DNA from: a virus
Strand: one strand, 5' to 3'
Virus record (IMG/VR): IMGVR_UViG_3300035388_000035
Span: 1-22,476 of that record
Length of the DNA stretch: 22,476 nucleotides
Under the pieces are notes generated by a model that was not told the origin of the DNA, did no database searches, and saw only the letters and a list, made by a program, of their open reading frames with translations. Positions 7,477-12,447 of this stretch are shown in pieces. The first letter of the stretch is position 1. Every line of letters starts with the position of its first letter. The translations under genes and the position numbers were made by a program.

Positions 7477-7914
7477 ATGGCATTTATTATAGAAAGTGAT
7501 TACGATGTTCAATTACGTTCAGAAATATCGGGTGTAATTGACCCGACACAGGAAAAATCGAAGCTTAAAAAAGCTGAAGATATGGCTATATCACAAATGA
7601 AAAACTATTTGGCGGGCAGATATGATATTGATCAAATATTTGTTGATGCTCCAGCCGATGGTGATGATGATCCCCGCGATAGTTTTATTGTAATGTGTGC
7701 CATAGATATGGCATTGTATCACTTATGGAGCAAAGAAGGTGGTAACAGAATACCGCAAACCCGAAGCGATCGATATGCCGATTGTCTCGAATGGCTTAAA
7801 GCTGTTCAGAAGGGAGCTGCCTGTAATTTGCCTGTTATTACTGATGATGAAGGTAACGAATCACACGATATACGAATTTGGAGTAAACACGAACCCGAAA
7901 ATAATAGATTCTAA
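7477..7914 (+). CDS. Mu gp36-like protein (DUF1320), head-tail connector
   Basis: The 145-residue sequence has the DUF1320 pattern: an N-terminal FIIESDYDVQLRSEISGVID, a helix with AEDMAISQMKNYLAGRYDID, then DSFIVMCAIDMALYHLWS and a C-terminal RSDRYADCLEWLKAVQKGA. This family is related to the gp6/gp36 head-tail adaptors placed under the portal. Its stop overlaps the portal start (TAATGA). In Mu this gene is downstream of the capsid; here it sits between terminase and portal, so gene order has been shuffled. Confidence 0.82.
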   Translation: MAFIIESDYDVQLRSEISGVIDPTQEKSKLKKAEDMAISQMKNYLAGRYDIDQIFVDAPADGDDDPRDSFIVMCAIDMALYHLWSKEGGNRIPQTRSDRYADCLEWLKAVQKGAACNLPVITDDEGNESHDIRIWSKHEPENNRF

Positions 7915-9164
7915 TGAATAACATGGAAGTAAAATCTCAATCATATTTATGGGGACTAATCAGAAAAGAAACCAAATCCCCGACAGCATCTACAAGCTCA
8001 TCAAAAAAGAGTGGAGTTGTAGCACAAATTATAAGCGAATTTAAAGATCAAACCCGGACGAATATCCAAAAGTGGCGTGAGGCAATGCAAGCCGCTTATG
8101 ATACTGATGATCCCCGTTGGTTTCCTTTACAGGATTTATTTGATAATTTATCAACAGATGGTCATTTACAAGCTTTAATGCAAATTCGTAAAGCTGCTGT
8201 AACAGGTAACCGCTTTTATATTATGTCCGCAGATGGTAGTGAAAATGAAGAAGCAACACAGCAATTGCAAACCGAATGGTTTTATAACCTAATGGAGTAC
8301 TTCCTCGATAGCATATACAAGAAGGTTTCAGTAATTGAGCTATTCGATCCTGCCAATATGTTATGGAAACCTGTACCACAACGTAATATATGCCCTCAAT
8401 TACAACGTATTTACATGGAGGTTTCTGGCAATAAGTTTATAAACTATGCTGATCCTAAGTTTCAAAGGAATTTGATTTTTACAGAAAGCATCCATCATTA
8501 TGGAATACTTAACGATATTATACCACAGCTTATTTGGAAAAGAAATGCACAACAAGTGTGGGCTGATCTCGCAGAGCGTTTTGGTATTCCTATGATTACT
8601 GCCGAAACTATTGCAACCAACAAGAAACAATTGGATGATATTGAAGATTCATTAAATAAACTTGGACAGGCTGCAAATGCTGTTTTACCTGAAGGAACAA
8701 AAGTTACTATTCACGATGGTTCAACAAAGGGAGATCCGCATAAAATATTCATGGAGCAAATTAAAACCACAAACGATGAAATGAGCAAGGACATGGTTGG
8801 TGGAACTATGGTTATTGATGATGGAAGCTCACGAAGTCAAAGCGAAGTTCATGAACGTACTTTAGATAAAAAGATAGCCGAAAAAGATAGACGTATGATT
8901 GAGTTTATCGTAAATAATAAACTCATTCCAATGCTTCGTATGCATGGTTTTAAGTTCAACGATAAAGAACGTTTTGTTTTCGACCGTAGTGAATCGCTTT
9001 CTCTAAAAGAACATTGGGAAATTGTAAGTGAGGCTGCTACACAATTTGAGTTTGACCAAAAAGGAATTGAATGGATTGCTAAAACATTTAATGTGCCTGT
9101 TGTTGGTAAAAAACAAAACACTCAGTCAAATTCAGGAACTGGCCTAACTGCAAATTTTCGGTAG
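7914..9164 (+). CDS. Portal protein (DUF935, Mu gp29-like)
   Basis: This 416-residue protein is the dodecameric portal through which DNA enters and leaves the head. Recognisable parts are the N-terminal SQSYLWGLIRKETKSPTAST region, DDPRWFPLQDLFDNLSTDGHL near 60-82, VSVIELF, the QVWADLAERFGIPMITAET segment near 215-235, and MVGGTMVIDDGSSRSQSEVH near 292-315. The C-terminus is cut off by TAG at 9162-9164 about ten codons after an abrupt low-complexity stretch (QNTQSNSGTG). The last codons contain the slippery heptamer AAATTTT, so a share of ribosomes may read on into the MuF frame. An alternative ATG lies three codons inside the start. Confidence 0.88.
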   Translation: MNNMEVKSQSYLWGLIRKETKSPTASTSSSKKSGVVAQIISEFKDQTRTNIQKWREAMQAAYDTDDPRWFPLQDLFDNLSTDGHLQALMQIRKAAVTGNRFYIMSADGSENEEATQQLQTEWFYNLMEYFLDSIYKKVSVIELFDPANMLWKPVPQRNICPQLQRIYMEVSGNKFINYADPKFQRNLIFTESIHHYGILNDIIPQLIWKRNAQQVWADLAERFGIPMITAETIATNKKQLDDIEDSLNKLGQAANAVLPEGTKVTIHDGSTKGDPHKIFMEQIKTTNDEMSKDMVGGTMVIDDGSSRSQSEVHERTLDKKIAEKDRRMIEFIVNNKLIPMLRMHGFKFNDKERFVFDRSESLSLKEHWEIVSEAATQFEFDQKGIEWIAKTFNVPVVGKKQNTQSNSGTGLTANFR

Positions 9165-9205
9165 GTGGTAATCCAAGGGCAGCGATTATCACCGAACATA
9201 CGCCC
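9152..9205 (+). other. Putative programmed -1 ribosomal frameshift signal
   Basis: The portal frame reads GCA AAT TTT CGG TAG. Bases 9152-9158, A AAT TTT, fit the X XXY YYZ slippery rule for -1 shifting. Five bases later GGTGGTAATC (9164-9173) pairs with GATTATCACC (9184-9193): ten pairs, one of them G-U, around the loop CAAGGGCAGC. Loop bases GGGC (9177-9180) can also pair with GCCC (9202-9205), giving a possible pseudoknot. The -1 frame is exactly the MuF frame, open from 9110 to 10489. Expected fusion: 415 portal residues plus 443 MuF residues. Confidence 0.65.
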
Positions 9206-10489
9206 GAACTTTATGCCGATGTTTGCCCTCATTGCGGAGGTAAACATCCCGAAGCTTCAGAAGATATTCCTGCCACACTTACAGCATCAATAAAACGAGA
9301 AGTAAAACGTATAATCGATGAAGTGTATAATGGTAAAATTGGAATTGGCGATATCGATGCCAAGCTGTTAAAACACATCGGTTCGGCTCTTGAAAATCAG
9401 GTAATCGCTGGATTTGGTAAAAGCTTTGCTAATGTCGATTTTACCACACCCGATGCTGCAATGTTAACACGCCTTACCCGTGACGTTTGGCACTTTTCGG
9501 CTGCTAAAAATTACCAGCAGCTTAGGGATATGACTTTAGCTTTAAAAGATGAAAACGGGAAACTTCGAAAGTTTGAAGATTTCAGGGAAATAGCTTTAAA
9601 TGATGATGAGAAGTATCGCAAGTGGTTAAAAACAGAATGGAATCAGGCTGCAGGTGGTAGTGTAATGGCTGCACGTTGGACAGAGTTCCAACAAAATGCC
9701 GATATCATGCCATACCTTAAATACGATACGGTTGGCGATGAAAATGTACGTAATGAACATGCTGCTCTTGATGGTATTGTTCGCAAGATAGTTGATGAAT
9801 TTTGGAAGAAGTACTTTCCTCCAAATGGTTGGGGATGTCGTTGTAGTGCCGATCAGCTAAGTACAAGTTATGCTAAAGAAACGGATCAAGTTCCTGAAAT
9901 TAAGATCCCGAAAATGTTTCAAACTAACTTAGCCGATAGTGGTTTGATATTTCCTGAAGATCATCCATATTACATTGGAACTCCAGCTAAAATACTGCGA
10001 CAATCGGTACAAACATTACCCGATAGTGTTGCTTACAAAGATGTTTACACCAGCGAAACAGGAAATGTTAAGATGCATTTCTTACACGGCATCGATGAAA
10101 TGAACGATAATATCGAAATGTCTAAAAGACTTGCTGATAATGGCTATAAAGTTAGATTACTACCTGTTTTAGATGATGATAAGATTAGAAAAGCAGTTTA
10201 TAAAACGGATACTTTTATTTCAGGTAAGAACCCTGATGCTTTATTGAATAAAACTTTGTTTGAGTTTAAAAAACTTAGTTCGGTAAACTACAAAAATATT
10301 CAACGCAACATCTACAGGGCATCAAAACAAGCTGAAAATATTTTTATTAGCATAAACCAAGAGTTAAGTTTAAAAGATATTGAACGCCCGGTTAATGGAT
10401 TATTCAGTCAAAGTAAAACTATAAAACAAGTGTGGATCGATAATAATGGTAATATTATAAAAATGCAAAATCCGAACTACGAAAAGTAA
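9158..10489 (+). CDS. MuF head protein with C-terminal nuclease-like toxin domain
   Basis: Only start codon in frame is GTG at 9323 (388 residues), but the frame is open from 9110 and the preceding 55 codons look coding (ELYADVCPHCGGKHPE, a single zinc-knuckle-like CxxC). Expression by -1 shift from the portal is therefore proposed. Numbering from the GTG: residues 30-180 are the MuF (Mu gpF, PF04233) domain, with VWHFSAAKNYQQLRDMTLAL at 55-74 and FPPNGWGCRC at 165-174. Residues 245-388 form a separate domain resembling CdiA-type tRNA nuclease toxins: NGYKVRLLP, then GKNPDALLN with Asp305, EFK at 314-316, and RASKQAENIFISI. PD...ExK is the nuclease signature. MuF-toxin fusions are a known class of phage polymorphic toxins. 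No immunity gene follows directly. Confidence 0.75.
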   Translation, partial: SVGGNPRAAIITEHTPELYADVCPHCGGKHPEASEDIPATLTASIKREVKRIIDEVYNGKIGIGDIDAKLLKHIGSALENQVIAGFGKSFANVDFTTPDAAMLTRLTRDVWHFSAAKNYQQLRDMTLALKDENGKLRKFEDFREIALNDDEKYRKWLKTEWNQAAGGSVMAARWTEFQQNADIMPYLKYDTVGDENVRNEHAALDGIVRKIVDEFWKKYFPPNGWGCRCSADQLSTSYAKETDQVPEIKIPKMFQTNLADSGLIFPEDHPYYIGTPAKILRQSVQTLPDSVAYKDVYTSETGNVKMHFLHGIDEMNDNIEMSKRLADNGYKVRLLPVLDDDKIRKAVYKTDTFISGKNPDALLNKTLFEFKKLSSVNYKNIQRNIYRASKQAENIFISINQELSLKDIERPVNGLFSQSKTIKQVWIDNNGNIIKMQNPNYEK

Positions 10490-10575: not shown

Positions 10576-12447
10576 ATGTCAGCAAAAGGACAAGCAAAAG
10601 TAGAGTTAATACTAGATATGAAATCCAAGTTAAAAACTGGATTTACTAAAGCAAAGCAATCGGTTAACTCAAATGTACGTGAAATAAAATCGAAGTTAGG
10701 CGATTTAAAATCATCAACTACTTCTACATTTTCAAATATGTTTTCGGGTTTTAGCCTTAATCCTGTAAAAGGTCAATTTACCGATTTAAAGTTAAATGCA
10801 GTAAAAGCCATGCGTGATATTCAAAGCGAAATACCAATGGTCGGCACTGCCTTTAGGCTGCTTAAAAATCCAATAACATTGGCTGCAGCCGCAATATTCG
10901 GAATAGGGAAAGCTGCCAATGCAGCTACAAACGATGCAGCAGCATTTAATAAAAACTTCAGACAGCTTCAGATGCTTAACCTCGATAAACCTATTGCCGA
11001 CATGCAGCATTTAAAACGTTTAGTAAAAGATACTGCATTTAAAAAAGGTTTCGACATGAACCAAACAAATACAGCCTTTTTTGATGTCCAATCGGTTACC
11101 GGGGAGTATGGTTCTGAAGTAAAAAAGATCGTTTCAAAACAAGGTGAGTTTGCTCAATTAATGCAGGCTGATTTTAACTCTTGGGTTGAAGGTACAGCAA
11201 AAGCAATGGCTAATTATGGTTTTGGAGCTGATAAGCTGGATGAATTTAATAGAGCTGCTTTTGCTACAGTAAAAACAGGTGTTACTACATTTGATCAGTT
11301 ATCAAAAGTAATGAGTGTTTATGCTGGATCAGCATCATCGGCTAAACAGAACTTTGGAGCAGCCAATAAAATATTCTCGTTATTTACTGTTAAGGTTAAG
11401 AGTGTTGACGAAGCTGCTACTTTAACAAAATCGTTGTTTAATGACCTGACAAAGAAAAGTACTATTGATGCCTTTAAGAAGATTGGTATTAATGTGTATA
11501 ATAACAACGGGCAAATGAAACAAGCCGATAGTTTACTAATTGAATTAAGCCAGAAGTTTAAAAAGCTTGGCGATAACGATAGGGCATTAATTGACCTTAA
11601 AAATCAATTCTCAGGTTCTGAAGGTTTAACTTCTTTCATACAATCGGCTATGGGTAGTACAGAAAAGCTTCAGAGTATGATAAATAATTTTGATGCCACT
11701 GGATTAGACTTGTCGAAAGCTTTAAATATATCTAAGCAAGATTCAACATACCTTCAGGAGCAACTTGAAAACAGGCTTAAAATATTAAAAGCTGATATCG
11801 GAGAAGAGTTACTTCCAACAAAAGTTGCATGGCAACAGTTTAAACTTGACTTTGTAGGAAAATCAAGATCATCTATAAATCCAAGCAAAGCAAGCGAAGG
11901 CTACCAGCAGGCAGGTACTGATTTTATATTAGAACGATTTGCAGGAATCATAAACAATCCTGGGCAATTTACAACTAAGCAGTTTGATGATGTATTCTCA
12001 GACATTCATACGTTGCACGAATACTACCAGAAGGACTATGCAAAATCACGAAAGTATGAACCTAATATTTATGAGTACACAAAAAAAGAAGAAAGGTTTG
12101 GAGCATTCTATGACAAAGGTGCATTATCGACTTTATACAATTTAGAAAGGCAATTACGCAAGGTTTATGCAAATCTTCCAGAAAATCATGATCAGACTAT
12201 AGCGGATCAGGACGGAGGTATTACAACAGGTACTGAAGATACCAGCTTGGTAAAAGAATCGCCAATTGATAAAATTACTGGCCATGCTAAACAAATACGT
12301 AATCTCACGATTAACATAGATGCTTTTAATAAAGGTGGTATTAATACCGAAAATACTACTTTACAACATATGGATGCTCACGAATTGGAAGAATGGTTTT
12401 CTAATATGATGATGAGAGTTGTACGTAATACTGAAAAAGGATATTAA
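10576..12447 (+). CDS. Tail tape measure protein
   Basis: At 623 residues this is the longest gene in the window. The N-terminus is basic and coiled (KLKTGFTKAKQSVNSNVREI), with a hydrophobic segment at about 97-115 (ITLAAAAIFGIGKAANAA). The middle resembles the TP901 tape-measure core: FNKNFRQLQ, FDMNQTNTAFFDVQS, FAQLMQADF, VMSVYAGSASSAKQNFGAAN and KSLFNDLTKKSTIDAFKKIG. The C-terminus ends ITGHAKQIRNLTINIDAF through MMMRVVRNTEKGY, a pattern I associate with tape measures of Bacteroidetes phages. The tape sets tail length; at about 1.5 angstrom per residue it implies a tail somewhat under 100 nm. It is unusual that it lies in the head operon, on the opposite strand from sheath and tube. Confidence 0.75.
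   Translation: MSAKGQAKVELILDMKSKLKTGFTKAKQSVNSNVREIKSKLGDLKSSTTSTFSNMFSGFSLNPVKGQFTDLKLNAVKAMRDIQSEIPMVGTAFRLLKNPITLAAAAIFGIGKAANAATNDAAAFNKNFRQLQMLNLDKPIADMQHLKRLVKDTAFKKGFDMNQTNTAFFDVQSVTGEYGSEVKKIVSKQGEFAQLMQADFNSWVEGTAKAMANYGFGADKLDEFNRAAFATVKTGVTTFDQLSKVMSVYAGSASSAKQNFGAANKIFSLFTVKVKSVDEAATLTKSLFNDLTKKSTIDAFKKIGINVYNNNGQMKQADSLLIELSQKFKKLGDNDRALIDLKNQFSGSEGLTSFIQSAMGSTEKLQSMINNFDATGLDLSKALNISKQDSTYLQEQLENRLKILKADIGEELLPTKVAWQQFKLDFVGKSRSSINPSKASEGYQQAGTDFILERFAGIINNPGQFTTKQFDDVFSDIHTLHEYYQKDYAKSRKYEPNIYEYTKKEERFGAFYDKGALSTLYNLERQLRKVYANLPENHDQTIADQDGGITTGTEDTSLVKESPIDKITGHAKQIRNLTINIDAFNKGGINTENTTLQHMDAHELEEWFSNMMMRVVRNTEKGY

Follow-up and report, generated by a model that had tools for sequence, protein, structure and literature searches.

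In the dnaX gene, a -1 shift leads to termination in E. coli, the arrangement is reversed in some bacteria, and Thermus relies on transcriptional slippage (PMC5009743). The stem or pseudoknot of bacterial -1 signals generally begins 5 to 8 nucleotides (nt) past the slippery heptamer (PMC4066793). Among phage proteins, mature virions lack gpG and gpGT (PMC5009743), and the portal is a dodecamer in other phages (PMC6316719, PMC4493119). Here, we analyze the junction between the portal gene and the adjoining MuF reading frame in a 22,476-base virus record, IMGVR_UViG_3300035388_000035 (the whole stretch is called the window below; L and G numbers denote compared loci and genomes). An initial annotation had proposed that a programmed -1 frameshift fuses portal to a MuF-toxin protein at this junction and had named no precedent; none is reported in the open full text that we searched.

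The proposal is supported by the position of the heptamer, by codon constraint, by a covarying stem, and by selection on the -1 frame in relatives. The junction in the window is very probably a programmed -1 ribosomal frameshift signal giving both portal and portal-MuF. Judged by sequence comparison, two products from one gene, namely plain and toxin-bearing gate subunits, appear to be made across many related Bacteroidota phages.

The proposed junction signal and its conservation

The 3' end of the portal gene in the window reads GCA AAT TTT CGG TAG, with its last base at 9164. As in canonical bacterial -1 signals, the heptamer lies near the end of the first open reading frame (ORF), the second is open in the -1 frame, the 5-nt spacer before the stem falls within the 5- to 8-nt range, and the element is conserved across relatives with synonymous constraint. 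Every coordinate in the initial annotation was correct, including AAATTTT at 9152 to 9158, the -1 frame open from 9110, the stem, and the GGGC and GCCC strands. The first ATG, GTG, or TTG of the MuF frame is the GTG at 9323, which would be residue 56 of the extension. The window holds 59 in-frame X XXY YYZ heptamers in the 7295 codons of its ATG-started ORFs that are 60 codons or longer. Among those at most 60 nt from an ORF end, the portal heptamer alone is followed by an extended -1 frame, of 443 codons against 46 and 38 for the next two. When the junction was shuffled, a stem of at least 10 base pairs (bp) at a spacer of 4 to 9 nt arose in 27 of 5000 shuffles. Taken by itself, without relatives, this junction is suggestive evidence; the weight comes from the relatives.

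A first scan returned eight IMG/VR contigs with portals 54 to 75% identical to that of the window, and in every one AAATTTT and TAG occupy the same position and MuF follows in the -1 frame, although L004 and L005 have one junction in common and the L003 contig ends 39 codons past the slip site. The conservation check proposed in the initial annotation, that of AAATTTT and of a missing MuF start near the junction, thus came out positive in the first eight relatives and widely beyond them, together with the stem. Further loci were drawn from IMG/VR, GTDB genomes, and phage records, and removal of identical 250-nt junctions left 123 portal rows; these rows share ancestry, and probabilities calculated from them are therefore not literal. 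The wider scans kept 80 of 82 confirmed loci. Of 57 portal-matching phage records, 15 were examined in all and 14 entered the 123 rows. A pattern search gave 40 matches that included unrelated contigs, from which only those with a portal match were counted, and three portal copies (two more in G003, one in G002) were left out. By layout, MuF is in the -1 frame in 70 of the 123 rows and shares one ORF with the portal in 43; in 5 it is in the other frame, 1 row is broken, 2 lack MuF, and 2 are cut. One locus, L107, is a Bacteroidota phage locus on a contig labelled as a Rickettsiales metagenome-assembled genome; it is nearly the same as L110 and probably reflects a binning error.

That the frame change is a sequencing or assembly indel, or marks a decaying gene, is highly improbable. 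Two relatives do contain further breaks inside MuF: in L022 (= L036), the slip site and stop are intact and the MuF frame breaks after about 30 codons and resumes in another frame, by indel or decay, and in L127, a Flavobacterium davisii prophage, MuF is split over two frames about 325 nt past the portal stop. However, the layout and the heptamer class recur dozens of times, in phage records and isolate genomes as well as in metagenome contigs, and selection acts on the -1 frame. An extra base at the junction, which the initial annotation had named as a possible refutation, is excluded by the many independent assemblies with the same layout.

The heptamer sits exactly at -9 nt from the portal stop in 60 of the 70 rows with MuF in the -1 frame (AAATTTT in 47, AAATTTC in 6, TTTTTTC in 7). 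Eight of the other ten have either an A-run of at least 9 (L072, phage fF4; L127; L114; and L073, Peternella_1) or TTTTTTC further upstream (L077, TCUEAP3; L078; L084; and L085), the latter four with a stem before or across the stop that was identified by eye only. Codon usage at the site is also constrained. All 46 dereplicated AAATTT[TC] loci use AAT with a preceding A, whereas the same portal genes slightly favor AAC (534, versus 465 AAT). The products of own-gene codon frequencies are 10^-17 and 10^-25, values that give a direction and not an exact probability, as the 46 loci are related and were selected for the heptamer.

The stem was tested in the 53 dereplicated members of the 60 rows with the heptamer at -9. 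The mean best stem score was 21.0, compared with 10.4 for shuffled sequences and 12.2 with arms swapped between phages. A P value of 0.05 or less was obtained in 44 of the 53 loci; at five control offsets, the corresponding numbers were 2, 2, 2, 1, and 5 of 52 to 53. The spacer is 5 nt long in 41 loci, 4 nt in 5, 6 nt in 6, and 7 nt in 1. Covariation was scored in 16 of these loci, all near relatives whose loops match or nearly match in length; L183, whose loop is of equal length too, was omitted, and the choice leans toward structure. In this set, 93.1% of the cells of the 10-bp helix are paired and 7 of its 10 pairs show two-sided changes. The covariation score of 0.650 (0.278 when shuffled) was reached by 0 of 500 shuffles, as were the counts of paired and of two-sided cells, and sliding the partner strand destroys the pairing. 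The structure proposed in the initial annotation is therefore upheld for the stem, which is conserved and covaries, but its pseudoknot arm is unproven. We do not claim the GGGC/GCCC arm, which is kept in six near relatives with no two-sided changes and whose strands lie inside conserved codons.

Selection on the encoded protein begins directly after the slip site. Between the slip site and GTG 9323, the ratio of nonsynonymous to synonymous changes (pN/pS) in the -1 frame is 0.26, 0.44, and 0.31 for the window versus L002, L003 (35 codons), and L004, respectively, and 1.0 to 2.5 in the other two frames. By this sequence measure, the frame past the slip site is under protein selection ahead of any start codon.

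When 395 genomes of the phylum were searched with a portal profile, 10 had a portal match, G001 included, and 10 further loci were obtained, one of which is a second copy in G001 and one of which (L192) resembles L155. Seven of the 10 have a heptamer and a candidate stem with P values of 0.02 to 0.10 (L192, L193, L194, L195, L197, L198, and L201, with L195 and L201 fused). L196 has the same gene layout and a GGGAAAG heptamer, with no stem found; L199 lacks a heptamer and has an ATG at +29; and L200 yielded no MuF.

Several observations weigh against a frameshift. The 74-nt region of the window is not unusually stable (z -0.85, with 42 of 200 shuffles folding as well), the stem is no better than chance at the 0.05 level in 9 of the 53 loci, and two of the five covariation measures were matched by shuffles (the number of two-sided pairs in 24 of 500 and the pair types in 159 of 500). 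The heptamer is degenerate in 2 of the 70 -1 rows (GGATTTT in L105, Bacteroides neonati, and TCTTTT in L156). In 6 of the 70 (L078, L131, L114, L090, L092, and L084), the first MuF start is an ATG within 60 nt, which overlaps the portal stop in the p00-like L078, and in those relatives independent MuF initiation may coexist with the frameshift. Finally, portal and MuF are separate genes in Mu, D3112, lotta8-2, and FPSV-S1. At L023, an ordinary TAA closes the portal, a MuF was not found downstream, and the next ATG-started ORF resembles the start of the window's tape measure. These four separate-gene phages and the lack of MuF at L023 indicate that tethering is not universally needed.

Start codons near or over the portal stop, and the separate starts of Mu and D3112, would fit a MuF that is an ordinary separate gene, begun at a nonstandard start codon or by reinitiation at the portal stop, with the heptamer and stem incidental. 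Bacteroidota are not known to depend on Shine-Dalgarno sites, which also counts for this explanation. We nevertheless consider it improbable in view of the heptamer fixed at -9, the codon constraint, the covarying stem, and the coding selection described above; moreover, the first start codon in the window, at residue 56, would lie inside a predicted helix (residues 39 to 57). The initial annotation had held that a normal ATG start for MuF in related phages would count against the frameshift. Among the 70 -1 rows, a first ATG this close to the junction was seen in the six named; in the window the first start is GTG 9323.

One-ORF fusions and three possible designs for two products

Ordinary one-frame fusions had likewise been named in the initial annotation as grounds for refutation. 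They do exist, in 43 of the 123 rows, but by our reading of the junctions 42 of the 43 carry a slippage element there, the exception being L124. One-ORF fusions with slippage elements show the fusion to be a genuine product and suggest that both products are called for, and we take them as strengthening a frameshift at the window's junction. The 42 rows comprise 10 with AAATTTTAA, the same heptamer set to terminate; 3 with TCTTTTAA, which is degenerate; 2 with TTTTTTC and a GC-rich stem; and 27 with runs of 9 to 11 A. In all ten AAATTTTAA rows, a -1 slip meets TAA at 0 codons and a stem then follows (P values of 0.01 to 0.09, with two of the ten above 0.05), and such a slip would give portal alone. 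The fused relatives thus show the arrangement of a dnaX-type shift-to-terminate signal, with a heptamer in a long single ORF, an immediate -1 stop, and a stem after it. In the two fused TTTTTTC rows, the -1 stop is 24 and 30 codons away and so not immediate. Codon choices at fused junctions also favor slipping (joint 10^-9.8). Stem covariation is weak in the fused group, with one two-sided pair in the larger clade. In an AlphaFold2 model of the fused protein of L088 (mean predicted local distance difference test score [pLDDT] 76, predicted template modeling score 0.50), the slip site falls within a low-confidence linker between portal and MuF, at about residues 392 to 430. This model suggests that both designs would release a complete portal.

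The 27 A-run rows contain near copies, from Tenacibaculum and others, and independent cases are fewer. These runs raise the question as to whether the second product is made by transcriptional slippage and not by ribosomal frameshifting. Slippage on runs of 9 A or T is documented in bacteria (PMC5009743), and the A9 to A11 runs at the junctions of flavobacterial relatives have almost no counterpart in the rest of each locus (of the 25 fused A-run loci listed, only 1 has another A or T run of at least 9). In addition, phage fF4 (L072, 3643) has A9 and a prophage of its listed host, Flavobacterium columnare (L126, 6200), has A10, with 99.96% identity over 2801 nt, which may be a slippage run or a difference in how the homopolymer was read. 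After the A-runs, stops also lie nearby in both other frames; we do not use these as evidence. The window, by contrast, has only TTTT in its heptamer and carries the kind of spaced, covarying stem seen in ribosomal signals. We give transcriptional slippage little credence as the general explanation of the second product: it is unlikely for the window and at least as likely as ribosomal slipping for the A-run clade.

A tree of 119 portals implies some 15 switches between the -1 layout and the fused one (a quick method, with long branches flagged, and one switch being the fF4 A9/A10 pair). L140, with MuF in the -1 frame, and L141, which is fused, are 91% identical in DNA through the portal and 94% upstream; their MuF parts differ and do not match at the DNA level, and identity returns, at 83%, further downstream. 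This pattern points to recombination at the junction. Shift-to-extend, shift-to-terminate, and A9 to A11 runs could each yield portal and portal-MuF, and the same two products seem to be secured across Bacteroidota Mu-like phages by these three interchangeable designs. An equal product ratio would demand far more slipping from shift-to-terminate than from shift-to-extend.

For the window, most ribosomes would halt at TAG 9162 to 9164 and release a portal of 416 residues. A fraction, paused by the stem at 9164 to 9193, would slip from A AAT TTT to AAA TTT and continue in the MuF frame, giving a portal-linker-MuF-nuclease protein of 858 residues, the size expected in the initial annotation and borne out by the sum of 415 and 443. 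A predicted tryptic peptide across this junction would end ...GLTANFSVGGNPR. The sequences show conservation, position, codon constraint, the covarying stem, protein selection in the new frame, and relatives with the same fusion in one ORF; the slipping itself, and its rate, are inferred. Portal C-termini face the capsid interior. For this reason, and because SPP1 gp7 is brought into the head in few copies by binding the portal (PMC6316719), mixed portal rings would be expected to hold a few tethered MuF domains within the head. As others have proposed for MuF toxins (PMC6316719), the DNA may then take the nuclease with it into the cell. Taken together, we think it probable that in Bacteroidota transposable phages one portal gene must yield portal and portal-MuF(-nuclease), with the genetics switching repeatedly among the three designs, and that mixed rings would hold a set number of tethered effectors at the DNA exit as a dosing device for a protein that travels in with the genome.

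The MuF extension and the surrounding genes

Profile matches place the junction in a Mu-like head operon that comprises, in order, terminase, a gp36-like adaptor (PF07030), portal, MuF with CdiA_C, and tape measure (Table 1). A -1 heptamer upstream of a tape measure gene (10576) recalls the lambda gpG/gpGT arrangement; a tail chaperone frameshift lying here by accident is nonetheless refuted by domain content, the products being portal (PF06074) and MuF (PF04233) by profile, and its probability is negligible. The MuF stop at 10489 and the tape measure ATG at 10576 are 86 nt apart. No ORF of at least 60 amino acids (aa) starts in those 86 nt on either strand that could be an immunity gene directly downstream of MuF, the only place in which one was sought.

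AlphaFold2 models the window's MuF part with a mean pLDDT of 89, as a folded body after 30 to 40 floppy residues, and it is in the first helix of this model that a start at GTG 9323 would fall. In a fold search, the C-terminal domain matched the CdiA-CT structure PDB 4g6v_A (Z 12.0, root mean square deviation of 2.5 A, 118 aa, 25% identity); no row besides 4g6v reached Z 8, and the MuF core had no convincing solved match. The CdiA-CT-like domain has a conserved KNPDA...EFK stretch, which we take to resemble PD-(D/E)xK nucleases. As in MuF polymorphic toxins, the predicted order in the window is MuF followed by a toxin-type C-terminal domain, adjoining the portal gene. When 108 MuF proteins were grouped by C-terminal similarity, 42 fell with the window and 42 with the fused L029. 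Among the MuF proteins scanned with profiles, L027, L028, L103, and L139 reached the CdiA_C cutoff and L105 fell below it. Other C-termini matched PBECR2 (L029 and L115, both fused), LPD3 (L024 and L081), or nothing (L090).

Table 1. Features of the portal-MuF junction and its predicted products in the window
Feature	Position	Strand	Remarks
Mu-type portal gene	7914..9164	+	416 aa, zero-frame product; PF06074 Portal_Mu E 2.8e-60; phrog_113 portal
Putative slippery heptamer A AAT TTT (AAATTTT)	9152..9158	+	In-frame X XXY YYZ; kept in relatives
Predicted -1 frame MuF extension	9158..10489	+	443 aa after slip; frame open from 9110, stop 10487-10489
Flexible linker with CPHC motif, portal to folded MuF	9158..9271	+	AlphaFold2 block pLDDT 38, 50, 54, 76 for residues 1-40; first helix 39-57
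Five-nt spacer, heptamer to stem	9159..9163	+	Same length in 41 of 53 dereplicated loci
Portal zero-frame stop TAG	9162..9164	+	Its G is the first base of the stem; 53 dereplicated loci: 45 TAG, 6 TAA, 2 TGA
Putative stimulatory stem, 5' arm	9164..9173	+	Pairs with 9184-9193, 10 bp, one G-U
Loop GGGC, possible pseudoknot strand	9177..9180	+	Every pair conserved in 5 or more of 6 near relatives; two-sided changes absent; unproven
Putative stimulatory stem, 3' arm	9184..9193	+	Pairs with 9164-9173; covariation
GCCC, possible pseudoknot partner	9202..9205	+	Overlaps conserved protein codons
MuF core	9617..9847	+	PF04233 E 3e-14
C-terminal CdiA-CT-like nuclease domain	10061..10471	+	PF18451 E 6.6e-9; 4g6v_A structural match

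Relation to known systems

In the tables returned for five annotated records with MuF in the -1 frame (fF4, Peternella_1, TCUEAP3, jmh72, and p00), the two genes are annotated apart and carry no slippage note. The annotated MuF starts lie 99, 276, and 9 nt past the portal stop in L073, L077, and L072, respectively, and the N-termini are probably truncated. A frameshift would explain MuF genes that lack a start near the junction and seem truncated in annotations (fF4, Peternella_1, and TCUEAP3), and it would offer a physical route for placing a MuF effector on the portal in a controlled copy number. The extend, terminate, and A-run designs would form a natural series for asking why a phage needs both portal forms, and cultured phages, hankyphage p00 for example, would allow direct tests of how MuF toxins are loaded and dosed.

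The closest genetic parallel is dnaX, in which one gene gives two products, tau and gamma, that share their N-terminal part, and in which the same three designs occur (PMC5009743). The likeness extends to the individual designs, in that AAATTTTAA relatives stop at once in the -1 frame, others have A-runs, and the window would stop and then extend. The proteins, however, are unrelated, the genes here are phage head genes, and the heptamer is mostly AAATTTT and not AAAAAAG. As for lambda gpG/gpGT, the GGGAAAG of L196 is the heptamer used in TP901-1 gpG (PMC4493119), whereas the proteins here are portal and MuF, a stem follows after a 5-nt spacer, and the product would be expected in the virion. 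Capsid and tail-tube proteins made with and without a frameshifted C-terminal extension are known from other phages (A2, T3/T7, PSA, and SPP1 gp17.1*; PMC5009743, PMC6316719), but here the extension would be a whole MuF with a nuclease-like domain, carried on the portal.

MuF polymorphic toxins (EFV, Apk2, and Bxa) share with the window a MuF with a C-terminal toxin-like domain beside portal genes (PMC5576092, PMC11699363, PMC3482391). As those sources describe them, muf is a gene downstream of the portal gene, whereas in the window MuF lacks a start codon close to the junction and would be reached via portal. In Microbacterium phages, portal and MuF occur in one protein, as in the one-ORF relatives and in the predicted fusion of the window; the available text on those phages mentions a frameshift for tail chaperones only and not for portal-MuF (PMC7302621).
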